A stretch of DNA of 64,000 nt from the NCBI GenBank assembly GCA_949841365.1, contig CATKZI010000005.1:1-64000 (forward strand). Direction: 5' to 3'. The notes below the pieces were generated by a model, which was not told the origin of the DNA, made no database searches, and saw nothing but the letters and a program-made list of their open reading frames with translations. A program made the translations under genes and the position numbers. This DNA is from an uncultured Candidatus Melainabacteria bacterium (lineage in GTDB: Bacteria > Cyanobacteriota > Vampirovibrionia > Gastranaerophilales > Gastranaerophilaceae). Of the stretch, positions 1-62,267 are shown piece after piece. Numbering within the stretch: position 1 is the first letter of the stretch; every line of letters begins with the position of its first letter.

Positions 1-702
1 CCCCGACAGGATGATGATATTATAGTAAGGGTTCCGGCATTTACATTAGCGGAAGTACTTATTACACTAGGGATTATTGGTGTTGTTGCGGCAATCACTA
101 TGCCTGTATTAATCAGCAAATATCAAAATAAGGTTTACGTTACACAGTTAAAAAAGGCTTATAGCGAAATATCTCAGGCTCTTAAGCTTTATATGGTTAA
201 TAACGGTGCAGAAACATTAACCGATGCCGGTATGACCTCACAAGATGCTGCAAATGAATTTATAAACAAATATATGACAAAAGCAACAGAATGCACTGCT
301 GAAAATGCAAATAAATGTTTTGCACATACTTATAAAAGATTGGATGGTACATCTAAGGTTGAAGAAGTACAGGCAAACTATGCAACTTCAAAATCATACG
401 TTTTAGCAAACGGAAGTGTTGTAAGATTTCATCACAGGATATCAGGCAGTAAAGTAGCAAATTTGCAGGTAGATGTTAATGGCAAAAAAGGACCAAATGT
501 TTATGGTAAAGATAAATTTGTTATCTATATTTACAATAACGGTTTATTAGATGATATTGTAGGCAATACCGGCAATAGCAACGGTAATGCTCCATTAACA
601 AAAGAGCAACGTGAAGAAAGTTTTAACACTTGGTGTATAAATAACGGCACAGGCGGTTGTTTTGGCAAAATTTTAAATGACAACTGGGAAATAAATTATT
701 AA
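1..702 (+). CDS. Type IV pilin-like protein, 5' end cut by window edge
   Basis: This is a prepilin-type protein whose start lies outside the window. The reading frame is open from base 1. It carries the prepilin cleavage/methylation motif AFTLAEVLITLGIIG followed by the hydrophobic helix, so it should be processed by a prepilin peptidase and packed by its N-terminal helix into a pilus or pseudopilus. The C-terminal half has the motif VDVNGKKGPN-x2-GKD-x-F shared with five other proteins in this window. The window begins with CCCCG, which matches the end of the C tract that two sister genes carry just before the FTLAE motif, so this copy may have the same kind of leader. Its stop overlaps the convergent PHP gene by 4 bases. 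The family is secure. Which pilus or secretion machine it belongs to is unknown. Confidence 0.85.
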   Translation, partial: PRQDDDIIVRVPAFTLAEVLITLGIIGVVAAITMPVLISKYQNKVYVTQLKKAYSEISQALKLYMVNNGAETLTDAGMTSQDAANEFINKYMTKATECTAENANKCFAHTYKRLDGTSKVEEVQANYATSKSYVLANGSVVRFHHRISGSKVANLQVDVNGKKGPNVYGKDKFVIYIYNNGLLDDIVGNTGNSNGNAPLTKEQREESFNTWCINNGTGGCFGKILNDNWEINY

Positions 703-8565: not shown

Positions 8566-9416
8566 CAATAGATGTAGGCGGAACTAAGATTTATTCCGCG
8601 ATAATAAACGAAAAAGGCGAAATAATTTCAGAAATCGAAAAACATCACACGCCAAAAACTTTTGCAGAAATAAAATCGCTTTTTGAAGATATAATCAAAC
8701 GCCACGAGGATAAAGTTGAGATAATTGCTTTTGCAACCTGCGGAGCAGTAAACAATACTAATGACGGGATTTTAGGTTCGACAGGAAATATCGCAAAAGA
8801 ATATCCTTCAATGGATTTTAAAGCTTTGAGTAAAAAACCTGTCTTTGTAGAAAACGATGCCAATGCAGCAGCCTGGGCAGAACACATTATCGGCGCATCA
8901 AAGGGAATGCCGTATTCTATAATGCTTACACTCGGAACAGGGGTCGGCGGCGGAATTATCTTAAACAATAAGCTTTATAAAGGCAAAAACGGAGCAGCAG
9001 GCGAAATGCATTTTAAAATGCGTACGGACAAACACAGAAAATGTACCTGCGGGTCATGGGACTGCTTTGAAATCTATGCATCAGGTACAGGATTAAAGAA
9101 AACAGCAGAAGAAATTTCGGGCAATCCTGATATTACAACTTATGATGTTATTGAAAAAAATGACCGCAAAATTCTCGACAGATGGCAGGACGATATTTTA
9201 GCGGGAATTATCGGACTTTCAAATATTTTTGACCCTGATGTCATTGTACTATCAGGTTCAATGGCAGAGTTTGTTGATATTGATTATCTTGAAAAACAGG
9301 CAAACAAAGAAATTGTTACAACACCTTTCAAAGTTGCAAAAGCTACTGCGGGCAATTATTCTGGAATGATTGGCGCGGCACTTTTAGCTCTGGATTATTC
9401 AAAAAGCCAACTGTGA
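8550..9416 (+). CDS. nanK: ROK-family kinase, probable N-acetylmannosamine kinase
   Basis: This sugar kinase of 288 residues would phosphorylate ManNAc for the adjacent epimerase. It has the N-terminal phosphate loop AIDVGGTK, the ROK signature region GTGVGGGIILNN, the catalytic segment ENDANAAAWAE, and the zinc-binding HRKCTCGSWDCFE. AGAGG inside nanE serves as its ribosome binding site. The NanK assignment rests on coupling to nanE. A glucokinase-like specificity is the alternative. Its 3' end overlaps the convergent pilin-like gene by 22 bases. Confidence 0.87.
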   Translation: MRKALAIDVGGTKIYSAIINEKGEIISEIEKHHTPKTFAEIKSLFEDIIKRHEDKVEIIAFATCGAVNNTNDGILGSTGNIAKEYPSMDFKALSKKPVFVENDANAAAWAEHIIGASKGMPYSIMLTLGTGVGGGIILNNKLYKGKNGAAGEMHFKMRTDKHRKCTCGSWDCFEIYASGTGLKKTAEEISGNPDITTYDVIEKNDRKILDRWQDDILAGIIGLSNIFDPDVIVLSGSMAEFVDIDYLEKQANKEIVTTPFKVAKATAGNYSGMIGAALLALDYSKSQL

Positions 9417-10062
9417 TAATAACAGGGCGGTTTATTGCAATATGCATTTTGATTTGTAACATCTGAATTCCAACCAGGCATAATTTTTGCTGGCATTCCC
9501 GATTGTAGCATACTACCTTTTTCATCTGCAAATACAAAAGTAAACCTGTCTTTTCCAAAGATATTCGGACCTTTCGAGCCGTTAATGTCTACAAAATAAA
9601 TACTTGAACCGGTGACTTTTTGAACCCACACCCTGCCCGAAGCATCAATAAATGCGCGACTTGAACTGTTTGTAGGGTATCCTGTCCATGTATTGTTTCG
9701 ATTATCAACCCAGCATATATTTAACATGCTGCGAGGATCATTACACTCTTTTACAACTTTGAAACGCGATTTTATAGCATTCCATGCAATTTCAGCGGCA
9801 ACATAATCAAACGTATTACTTTCTTGTGCTATAATGTCATTATTATTAAGAGCATCCTCAAATACTTGTGAAAAATCCGAATAAGACTTTTTATAACCTA
9901 CCTTAAATTGCTTATCATTTATTTTATTAATCAAAGACGAAATTGTAAGTGCTGCAACAACACCAATAATACCAAGAGTAATTAAAACCTCTGCTAAGGT
10001 GAAGGCTAAGCGCGGTTCAGTGCCCCCCCCCCGAAAAACCGATTAATAATTGAGTATTCCAT
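9395..10062 (-). CDS. Pilin-like protein, out of frame at a G10 tract (candidate phase-variable, OFF)
   Basis: The ATG at 10062 follows AAAGGCTGG and opens a frame that runs into ten consecutive G (minus strand) and then hits TAG. The prepilin motif (AFTLAEVLITLGIIG) begins a few codons later in a different frame that is closed by TAA upstream and has no start codon. One extra G would join the two frames. The body carries the family motif VDINGSKGPN-x2-GKD-x-F and ends with a cysteine-rich tail. A good promoter precedes it. The gene is therefore silent as assembled, either a true phase-OFF state or a homopolymer sequencing error. An internal TTG at 9934 is not a credible start because it would omit the signal. 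Confidence 0.75.
10023..10032 (-). repeat. Homopolymeric G10 tract in a prepilin leader
   Basis: Ten C on the plus strand (G on the coding strand) lie between the start codon and the prepilin motif of the gene at 9395-10062. Gain of one G, or loss of two, restores the frame. Poly-G/C tracts of this length are classical slipped-strand mutators in AT-rich genomes. Confidence 0.85.
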
Positions 10063-10087
10063 ATTTCCAGCCTTTCTTATTATTAAT

Positions 10088-19286: not shown

Positions 19287-19940
19287 ATGAAAAAGCTTAG
19301 AATCACCCCTCCCCACGAAGGTTTCACTTTAGCTGAGGTCTTAATTACTTTAGGGATTATTGGAGTTGTTGCTGCAATTACTATGCCTGTTTTGATGGCA
19401 AACTATAGAAACAAAGTATTAGTTACACAGTTACAAAAAGTCTATTCCGAATTATCCCAAGCTGTCGAGATGATAAATAACAATTTTGGCGAAATCTGTG
19501 ATTATATGTCATATGATGAGTTTTTTAACCAATTAACATCAAAAATACAAACAACAAAAATTTGTAAAATGAGTTCAGGATGTTTTGAATCTACACCCGT
19601 TACCTATTTACGAGGTGGTAAAGCTGCAAATTGGAATAGTTTGGAACTTTCCAAATTCGTAATGACAAACGGTGCATTTGTAATGTTAGAGTATGGAAAA
19701 GGTACTGACGATCCAAATTTTAACCTTACAGAACCTGTAAAATTTCCTATTACTGTTGACATAAACGGTCTAAAAGGTCCAAATCAATTTGGATATGACG
19801 TGTTTATATTTGCAATTCGAAAAGGCGAAGTTATACCGCTTGGCAAAGATGATGACAGTGCATTATGTGACAAAAAGGTAAATCAGTACGGATATACCTG
19901 TGCTTTTAAAGTACTAAAGGAAGGTAAAATTAATTATTAA
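19287..19940 (+). CDS. Type IV pilin-like protein, intact
   Basis: This 217-residue prepilin starts MKKLRITPPHEG and continues directly into FTLAEVLITLGIIGVVAA, so the peptidase site G|FTLAE is complete. After the helix come YRNKVLVTQLQKVYSELSQAV, a variable cysteine-containing domain, and the family motif VDINGLKGPN-x2-GYD-x-F. Its leader DNA has CCCC-T-CCCC where the paralogues have an unbroken run of ten, so this copy is frame-stable. The promoter and GGAGG block match the 61393 copy, and a terminator follows at once, so it is monocistronic. Confidence 0.9.
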   Translation: MKKLRITPPHEGFTLAEVLITLGIIGVVAAITMPVLMANYRNKVLVTQLQKVYSELSQAVEMINNNFGEICDYMSYDEFFNQLTSKIQTTKICKMSSGCFESTPVTYLRGGKAANWNSLELSKFVMTNGAFVMLEYGKGTDDPNFNLTEPVKFPITVDINGLKGPNQFGYDVFIFAIRKGEVIPLGKDDDSALCDKKVNQYGYTCAFKVLKEGKINY

Positions 19941-48848: not shown

Positions 48849-49577
48849 ATGAATAAAGGTTTCACACTAGCCGAAGTGCTTATTACTCTTGGAATAATCG
48901 GCGTAGTTGCTGCAATTACAATTCCTACGATAATTTCAAATACTCAAGACAAACAAAATATTGTTCACTGGCGAAAAATGTATTCTGTCATCAATCAAGC
49001 ATTTCTTCAAACTATAGAAGAAGGTTATTCTCCGTGTATTCCATTTGTTAATGGCGAAACCTGCACAAATTTAATTGAATCTGCCCCACACAATTTAAAC
49101 ACTGAATTTATAAACAAAATGTTGGAAAAATTTAACGTAGTAGAAACTTGTGATAGTGGAGAATGTTATAATGGAAAGACTGTTTGGGCACCTGACTATT
49201 ATCGCAGATACAAAACTCTCGCAGGAGGGAAAATTAACAGTTACAATCTTTCAAGCTACAGAGCCAGACTTGCAACAGGAGAATTAATTATGTTTGGAGG
49301 AAGTCATGGCAGACATTGGATAACTGTAGACGTTGATGGATTTGGCAATGGAAAAGATACTTTAGGAAAAGATGTTTTTGTTATGAAAATTCATGATAAA
49401 TACTTAAAACCTATGGGAGCTGATGGCACTTTTAACAAAAATAAAAATGGTAAAATCTGTGAATGCAGTAAGAATAAAGGGGCAGTTAATGAAAATTATA
49501 TTGGTGGAGCCGGCGGAAGCAGCGAGGTAGCATCAGGTGCCTGCTGCAGCGCATATTACTTATTAAATGATAAATAA
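48849..49577 (+). CDS. Type IV pilin-like protein, intact
   Basis: This prepilin of 242 residues has a minimal leader: MNKG then FTLAEVLITLGIIGVVAAIT. The outer domain is longer and Cys/Gly-rich near the end (GGAGGSSEVASGACC). The family C-terminal motif is present in altered form (ITVDVDGFGNGKDTLGKDVF). It lacks the MKKL-x-I-x-PP leader and C tract of its sisters. It lies behind a palindrome and a divergent XRE repressor-type gene, so its control is probably transcriptional. Confidence 0.88.
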   Translation: MNKGFTLAEVLITLGIIGVVAAITIPTIISNTQDKQNIVHWRKMYSVINQAFLQTIEEGYSPCIPFVNGETCTNLIESAPHNLNTEFINKMLEKFNVVETCDSGECYNGKTVWAPDYYRRYKTLAGGKINSYNLSSYRARLATGELIMFGGSHGRHWITVDVDGFGNGKDTLGKDVFVMKIHDKYLKPMGADGTFNKNKNGKICECSKNKGAVNENYIGGAGGSSEVASGACCSAYYLLNDK

Positions 49578-61392: not shown

Positions 61393-62267
61393 ATGAAAAA
61401 GCTTGGAATTGCCCCCCCCCCGAAAAGCCGAGCAGAGGCACGAATGTAAGTGAGAGACGAACAAGCATAAGCGGAAACCGCGTTTTTCGATTTGCTTGTG
61501 AGCGGTGCCATTTATCGCGAGGCGGAGTCTTAGCATTCACACTTGCAGAAGTTTTAATAACTTTAGGAATTATAGGTGTTGTTGCTTCAATAACTTTACC
61601 CGCATTAATTAACAACTTCAAAAATCAACAATATGTAAATCAATTAAAAAAATCATATTCGGAGATTGGCAATACTTTCAAATTTATGATGGCAAAAGAA
61701 GAAGTTGAAAGTTTAGATGAAACTGAATTTTTCAGAAATTTTCCGGGTGAGACTCAAAATTCATCAAGAGTTCCCGAATACTTAGACACTGCTCTGGGAC
61801 AATATTTTAATGTTGTAAAAAACTGTCATAAACACGACACAACTTGCAATTCAATTAAATATAAAAGCTTACACAATGCCCCTCTTACAAACGACCTTAA
61901 CGATTACAATTTCTACACAGCAGGCGGACAAATTATTTACATGGGTGAATTCAGACGTTCCAGACTGCCCGATCAATATAATAAAGATGCTCAACTGGCA
62001 GGCTGTCCTGCTATAATAGGAGTTATCAACATTGACGTAAACGGCGAAAAAGGTCCCAATAAATATGGCAGAGATTACTTTTCATATCGATTGTGCGTTA
62101 ACGGAAAGCTTCTTGCAGAAGGCAGTAAAGAACTAGCAATGACAGCAGGTGACAATTATACCGGCTACTGGTGGAAAACAAGTTATTCCTGCAGTGGAAA
62201 TAATAAAGGTATAGGCCACGGCTGTGCCGGACGTGTTATGGAAAATGGCTGGAAGATGGATTATTAA
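61393..62267 (+). CDS. Pilin-like protein, out of frame at a C10 tract (candidate phase-variable, OFF)
   Basis: The ATG at 61393 opens MKKLGIAPPP and runs through ten C into a TAA about 10 codons later. The prepilin motif (AFTLAEVLITLGIIG, from 61533) is in another frame that has no start codon. Eleven C would join them and give a long leader of about 46 residues, including a 37-codon insert that has no stop in that frame. The body ends with the family motif IDVNGEKGPN-x2-GRD-x-F and a Cys-rich tail. The promoter and GGAGG are intact. An ATG at 61686 lies far inside the mature domain and is not a credible start. Confidence 0.75.
61412..61421 (+). repeat. Homopolymeric C10 tract in a prepilin leader
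   Basis: Ten C lie at codons 7-10 of the gene at 61393. Gain of one, or loss of two, puts the start codon in frame with the prepilin motif 40 codons later. Confidence 0.85.
61437..61509. repeat. Nested imperfect palindrome inserted in the prepilin leader
   Basis: Three inverted pairs are nested: GGCAC (61437-61441) / GTGCC (61505-61509), ACAAGCA (61461-61467) / TGCTTGT (61493-61499), and GCGG / CCGC (61471-61481). The segment lies between the C tract and the FTLAE motif and has no stop codon in the pilin frame. The intact paralogue at 19287 lacks it, so it is probably an inserted small repeat element. Confidence 0.5.

Follow-up and report, generated by a model that had tools for sequence, protein, structure and literature searches.

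The window, by which we mean the whole stretch of 64,000 nucleotides analysed, carries several pilin genes, and two of them have a run of exactly ten G or C between the start codon and the pilin body. The features to which we refer are the following.

10071 to 10075, minus strand: AAAGG, ribosome-binding-like, preceding the ATG at 10062 (from sequence)
10006 to 10062, minus strand: short upstream open reading frame MEYSIINRFFGGGALNRA, start codon and leader of the first pilin gene at tract length 10 (from sequence and frames)
10023 to 10032, minus strand: G10 tract in the context TTTTTC-G10-CACTG (from sequence)
9395 to 10003, minus strand: body of the first pilin, FTLAEVLITLGIIGVVAALT..., 202 aa (from profile match and frames)
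61393 to 61449, plus strand: short upstream open reading frame MKKLGIAPPPKSRAEARM of the second pilin (from sequence and frames)
61412 to 61421, minus strand: G10 tract belonging to the second pilin, whose coding strand reads C10; it lies on the chromosome strand that also carries the first tract (from sequence)
61536 to 62267, plus strand: body of the second pilin, 243 aa, offset by one base from the frame of its leader (from frames)
19287 to 19940, plus strand: third pilin, MKKLRITPPHEG followed by FTLAEV, with a similar leader, in which the tract CCCCTCCCCAC (11 positions) is mutated; the gene is in frame
48849 to 49577, plus strand: tract-free pilin with the short leader MNKG before FTLAEV
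1 to 702, plus strand: pilin cut by the contig start, apparently within its C tract (CCCCGACAGG...)

Tract-bearing pilins of the window

Translation from the ATG at 10062 yields MEYSIINRFFGGGALNRA and ends at the stop at 10006. The pilin frame reads FTLAEVLITLG... from the F at 10003 to the stop at 9395; it is open only from 10042 onwards and contains no ATG, GTG or TTG after its opening stop. On re-reading the frames we could verify the preliminary description of this gene as a start, ten G, a stop and a pilin one base short of frame that lacks a start codon of its own. Eleven bases fuse the leader and pilin frames, as it had stated, and eight would do so too. The FTLAE-type motif with its hydrophobic helix matched the N_methyl family (PF07963) at C5:9944-10006 with an E-value of 0.007, which is under the family's curated cut-off, passed by 42 paralogues in the genome. 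A Pfam search with the isolated body at E 0.001 gave no match. The best orthologue (L153) is 54% identical and has no tract, and the nearest relatives are strongly diverged.

The locus at 61393, described earlier as a second pilin with a 10-base tract and an offset of one base, was re-read as stated: the ATG at 61393 is followed by C10 at 61412-61421, MKKLGIAPPPKSRAEARM runs to a stop, and the pilin starts from the F at 61536. No in-frame ATG lies between run and motif in either of these two genes. Their tracts have opposite orientations relative to the genes and lie on one chromosome strand. The first bases of the window, CCCCGACAGG..., appear to be left over from a further tract. Shuffling the window with its dinucleotides preserved gives an expected number of 0 runs of G9 or longer.

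Census of runs, lengths and frames

We surveyed the genome (1.69 Mb, 19 contigs) and read the stretches around the runs; tract positions, lengths, frames, polarity and host genes were established directly in this way. The genome of this member of the Gastranaerophilales contains 50 runs of at least eight G, and 42 of these have a length of exactly 10; its matches to the N_methyl prepilin family number 63. About 40 runs fall in pilin leaders, which gives roughly two thirds of the pilins a tract, so the two loci that had been singled out are just two of about 40 pilin tracts. A coincidence between two loci is ruled out by the 50 runs, and the shared mechanism suggested for the pair is backed far beyond two. 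Typically, 19-45 bases separate a pilin tract from an upstream ATG that has a ribosome-binding-like site, and 6-194 bases separate it from the FTLAE motif downstream. The leaders of tract-free pilins are short, e.g. MKKG before FTLAEV.

For the count of frames we joined this genome (50 runs) with two contiguous relatives, G013 (47) and G029 (29), and accepted a pilin when at least 70 codons were open. The total is 126 runs, of which 104 have the exact length of 10 and 108 are held by pilins. Among the 107 scored pilin runs (one was unscored), 90 need +1 to be in frame, 15 are in frame and 2 need +2. The binomial p of the +1 excess is about 1e-27 against one third, uncorrected for shared ancestry; the offsets are not independent counts, because the leaders are related by descent. 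In genes with C on the coding strand alone, 27 of 32 show the +1 offset, and the off-by-one pilins include some with 12 or 13 G. The frames downstream of the OFF tracts are still open, at least 70 open codons having been required for detection. Most in-frame (ON) pilins have a G11 form of a leader that occurs as G10 in paralogues; for example, the paralogous leaders L203 (G11, in frame) and L251 (G10, off) are identical at 84 of 90 flanking bases. The FTLAEMMVV class is also in frame, at G10 and in two species. Its proteins are long, about 480-490 aa past the motif in this genome (G000:C1:259446 and C1:226633; also L186 of G013). One interrupted tract, CCCCTCCCCC (L092, G000:C6:121198), has 10 positions and is one base out of frame; it is probably a locked-off pilin.

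Run length differs among paralogues (G9-G11) and in a sister species (G10-G16), a comparison across gene copies and species. In the sister species G026, whose pilins have another leader, the tracts are 10-16 long and occupy all three frames (4 in frame, 3 needing +1 and 12 needing +2), and this spread of lengths indicates that tract length varies at the DNA level. The leader flanks are uniform within one species and different between species. Off-by-one pilins with an in-frame ATG between tract and FTLAE make up 24 of 36 in G013, 10 of 21 in G029 and 2 of 33 in this genome, and in G029 eight of these ATGs have a GGAG-type site. The run may therefore act differently in G013 and G029, and judging from the sequences, their pilins could be expressed from these ATGs independently of the tract.

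Across 33 genomes of the genus, the listed counts, summed by hand, give about 1,620 runs of exactly G10 vs 86 of exactly G7, and the G7-G8 intermediates are nearly absent. Of 26 genomes sampled from the genus, 22 contain the motif TC-G10-CRNTY. A second genus has it in two genomes, with 12 and 2 copies; in the rest of the order (more than 200 genomes) a handful have one or two copies. The reversed motif, used as a control, had almost no matches. An exact search of a species-level collection with a longer form returned Gastranaerophilales/Melainabacteria or unnamed MAGs, plus one Helicobacter. In the genome G027 (10 contigs), most of the 27 runs with nine or more G are flanked by A/T, and their strands are mixed; TC-G10-CRNTY was not found in this genome, which seems to be a relative without the system. 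Loss of mismatch repair was rejected as a cause, as MutS_I is present in 32 of the 33 genomes.

Regarding hosts other than pilins, six genes of this genome are open at n = 10. They encode an unnamed 360-aa protein, a TupA-like ATP-grasp protein, a DUF2142 membrane protein, a PMP-type autotransporter, an acyltransferase and a hexapeptide acetyltransferase. The relative G001 has more in-frame G10 hosts, including GT2 and GT9 glycosyltransferases, and two long proteins that are off by one. When GT2 and the acetyltransferase were aligned to solved relatives, G10 replaced native codons with no insertion, and from these alignments the run appears to have arisen in place in both genes. Taken together, the hosts are surface-structure genes of the contingency type (pilins, glycosyltransferases, acyltransferases, autotransporter).

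Strand polarity and flanking bases

The strand that carries the G is constant along each contig of this genome, with a single switch on C1 between 259.6 and 297.9 kb. This interval contains dnaN (C1:272.3-273.4 kb), the local cumulative GC skew has a low nearby, and the interval is probably the replication origin. With the interval taken as the origin, the G strand is the leading strand. In all three genomes the G strand has positive GC skew, and the constant-strand pattern was seen also in G013, G029 and the G001 contigs with multiple runs (e.g. 10/10, 9/9 and 8/8). The exceptions are few, namely runs without C flanks and the genome G027. Because genes point both ways while the G strand is fixed, the pilin mRNA carries G10 in 76 and C10 in 32 of the 108 pilin tracts. 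The polarity tracks replication, with the leading strand inferred as above, and not transcription, as expected of a replication-level process. The earlier proposal that the tract had arisen or been kept in different leaders is incomplete in this light: the leader words do differ, and largely this is the opposite orientation of one C-Gn-C tract, set by replication direction.

C precedes the run in most cases and follows it in 83-97%, and non-pilin genes are alike in this respect. Horton et al. 2025 reported that, for G runs on the leading strand, a T that follows changes to G at up to >1000-fold above baseline, and that C is the weakest 5′ neighbour for this GnT hotspot (PMC12344412). The hotspot was reported from Salmonella and Pseudomonas and concerns short G runs (PMC12344412), unlike the runs considered here. 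It lengthens runs that have a 3′ T, specifically on the leading strand, and predicts leading-strand polarity and a run end other than T, both of which were observed in these genomes. A change from GnT to Gn+1 could thus explain the polarity and the missing 3′ T, but it leaves the 5′ C, the exact length of ten and the missing G7-G8 unexplained.

Polar genome motifs such as Chi and KOPS show a similar strand skew that switches at origin and terminus, but they are spread over the genome, whereas the runs here are concentrated in pilin leaders. We rejected a motif of this kind, since the leading-strand skew is present and the gene-independent dispersion is not, with 108 of the 126 runs in pilins.

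A putative pilin switch and its alternatives

We consider it probable that the tract is a poly-G phase-variation switch in the pilin leader, operated by replication slippage, with OFF as the common length. At length 10, a ribosome starting at 10062 would hit a stop ahead of the prepilin motif and no pilin would be made; a change to 11 (or 8) would rejoin leader and pilin. Most tract-bearing pilins would be OFF by one and few ON, and the population could therefore be a mosaic of pilin repertoires. The G tracts would lie on the leading strand probably because tracts there grow or persist via leading-strand slippage together with the GnT-to-Gn+1 change. As in known poly-G phase-variable genes, runs of about eight or more lie in coding or leader sequence and the run length sets the open frame. 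High-rate length change in living cells, the equation of OFF with no pilin and the cause of the polarity are the parts that we infer. Several observations count against this reading: in most species the peak at 10 is sharp, sharper than the even 9-13 range of Helicobacter sp. 15-1451, and G7-G8 are nearly missing, although freely slipping tracts ought to show a wider range of lengths; many off-by-one pilins of G013 and G029 have the in-frame ATG past the tract; and a few non-pilin genes are off by one too. A doubtful but possible variant takes the sharp peak at face value. C-G10-C would then be a discrete, actively maintained state, in which a replication-linked process writes or holds exactly ten G on the leading strand and G7-G8 are avoided; pilin leaders would have evolved so that the set-point is OFF, leaving about 40 default-off pilins per genome to be sampled by rare +1 events.

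The offset might also be resolved in RNA: the DNA would stay at G10, and transcriptional slippage or -1 ribosomal frameshifting would bring back the frame, resulting in a low constant pilin output. Such programmed frameshifting fits the +1 offset in 90 of 107 pilins, which holds in both gene orientations and even at n = 12 and 13. However, the mRNA has G10 or C10 according to the gene while the strand is fixed by replication direction, G026 mostly has the other offset, and the in-frame G10 hosts would be mis-decoded. The combination of a constant slippery sequence on the RNA strand with a constant offset was not found. Given a replication-set strand and an offset that differs between species, we disfavour this explanation and regard it as improbable. 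Improbable, too, is a leader cassette spread through the pilins by gene conversion or insertion, which would have broken them, so that the off-by-one would reflect cassette length and slippage would rescue some genes only. The short leaders of tract-free pilins (MKKG before FTLAE), the tract-free orthologue L153, the species-uniform flanks that differ across species and the complete second start kept past the tract by some G029 pilins all agree with it, and an element of constant length would yield one offset in both orientations. On the other hand, the frames downstream remain open, G10 is better conserved than its flanks, and the non-pilin hosts are in frame and, where checked, without insertion. 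As for transposable elements or MITEs, both aligned non-pilin sites show replacement and the pilin leaders are without a close empty-site pair; an insertion element is unsupported at the non-pilin sites examined.

A platform that undercalls 11-base runs had been named as a condition that would overturn the description, and a homopolymer undercall or assembly artefact with a true length of 11 would indeed be in line with the difficulty of sequencing such long runs and with the position of four of the genome's contig ends, which fall on or next to a tract. It is nevertheless extremely improbable. The non-pilin genes read through exactly G10 in frame, which makes it a real sequence, not a truncated G11, and on this ground we rejected the undercall. 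In addition, lengths of 9, 11, 12 and 13 were called elsewhere (G11, G12 and G13 in some pilins), and many independent assemblies give a matching result, with the G10 mode recurring in those of other species, several with contig names of the short-read-assembler type.

The best-documented cases of poly-G phase variation come from Campylobacter, Helicobacter and Neisseria. The slippage switch proposed here resembles the contingency loci of Campylobacter jejuni and Helicobacter in that intragenic poly-G tracts in surface-structure genes set the frame by their length; it differs in having dozens of pilins as the main hosts, a mostly OFF common length, a near-fixed length of 10 and a strand that follows replication. 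In Neisseria pilC, poly-G lies in the signal-peptide region. The frame switching at the 5′ end of a pilus gene is alike, but one or two genes for pilus-associated proteins are concerned there, and here the tracts lie in the prepilin leaders of about 40 pilin genes in a genome. For scale, polyG/polyC runs of at least seven bases are found at 29 loci of C. jejuni NCTC11168 (PMC4965091). In Helicobacter sp. 15-1451 the poly-G runs have a GnCA flank in 12 of 19 cases, as here, and lengths evenly spread over 9-13.

A literature search for Gastranaerophilales together with phase variation found no paper, and the few matches for Melainabacteria/Vampirovibrionia with pili or phase variation were judged off topic by title and abstract. 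The putative poly-G switch described here belongs to an uncultured gut bacterium, a relative of Cyanobacteria that does not photosynthesize, and concerns about two thirds of a large pilin family. With its strict polarity throughout, the genus lends itself to tests of how the direction of replication affects the instability of G runs. Unless the tracts are taken into account, gene finding and proteomics will miss or truncate most tract-bearing pilins of the clade.

Several minor features of the leaders and contigs were also recorded. Four of the 38 contig ends lie near a G run, within about 215 bases (window 1-10, C1:7-17, C3:195154-195366 and C4:133-144); assembly may break at tracts owing to repeats or length heterogeneity. 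A repeated insert separates run and FTLAE in several pilins (window 61425-61530, L041, L053 and L067), and leader inserts of at least 40 bases have inverted repeats slightly longer than in shuffles. Two pilins of this genome (L083 and L095) have a duplicated motif, e.g. MTKRFGFTLAEGATHVAMPNSKLNFGFTLAEV, with the palindromic repeat CTACGCACGTAG between the copies of the FTLAE codons, resembling an insertion with duplication. Finally, a perfect hairpin, TTATAATAGTGAT-ATGAAAC-ATCACTATTATAA, lies between run and FTLAE in G013 loci such as L210 and L229 and in L209 of G029, with the ATG in its loop and a TATAAT-like stem.
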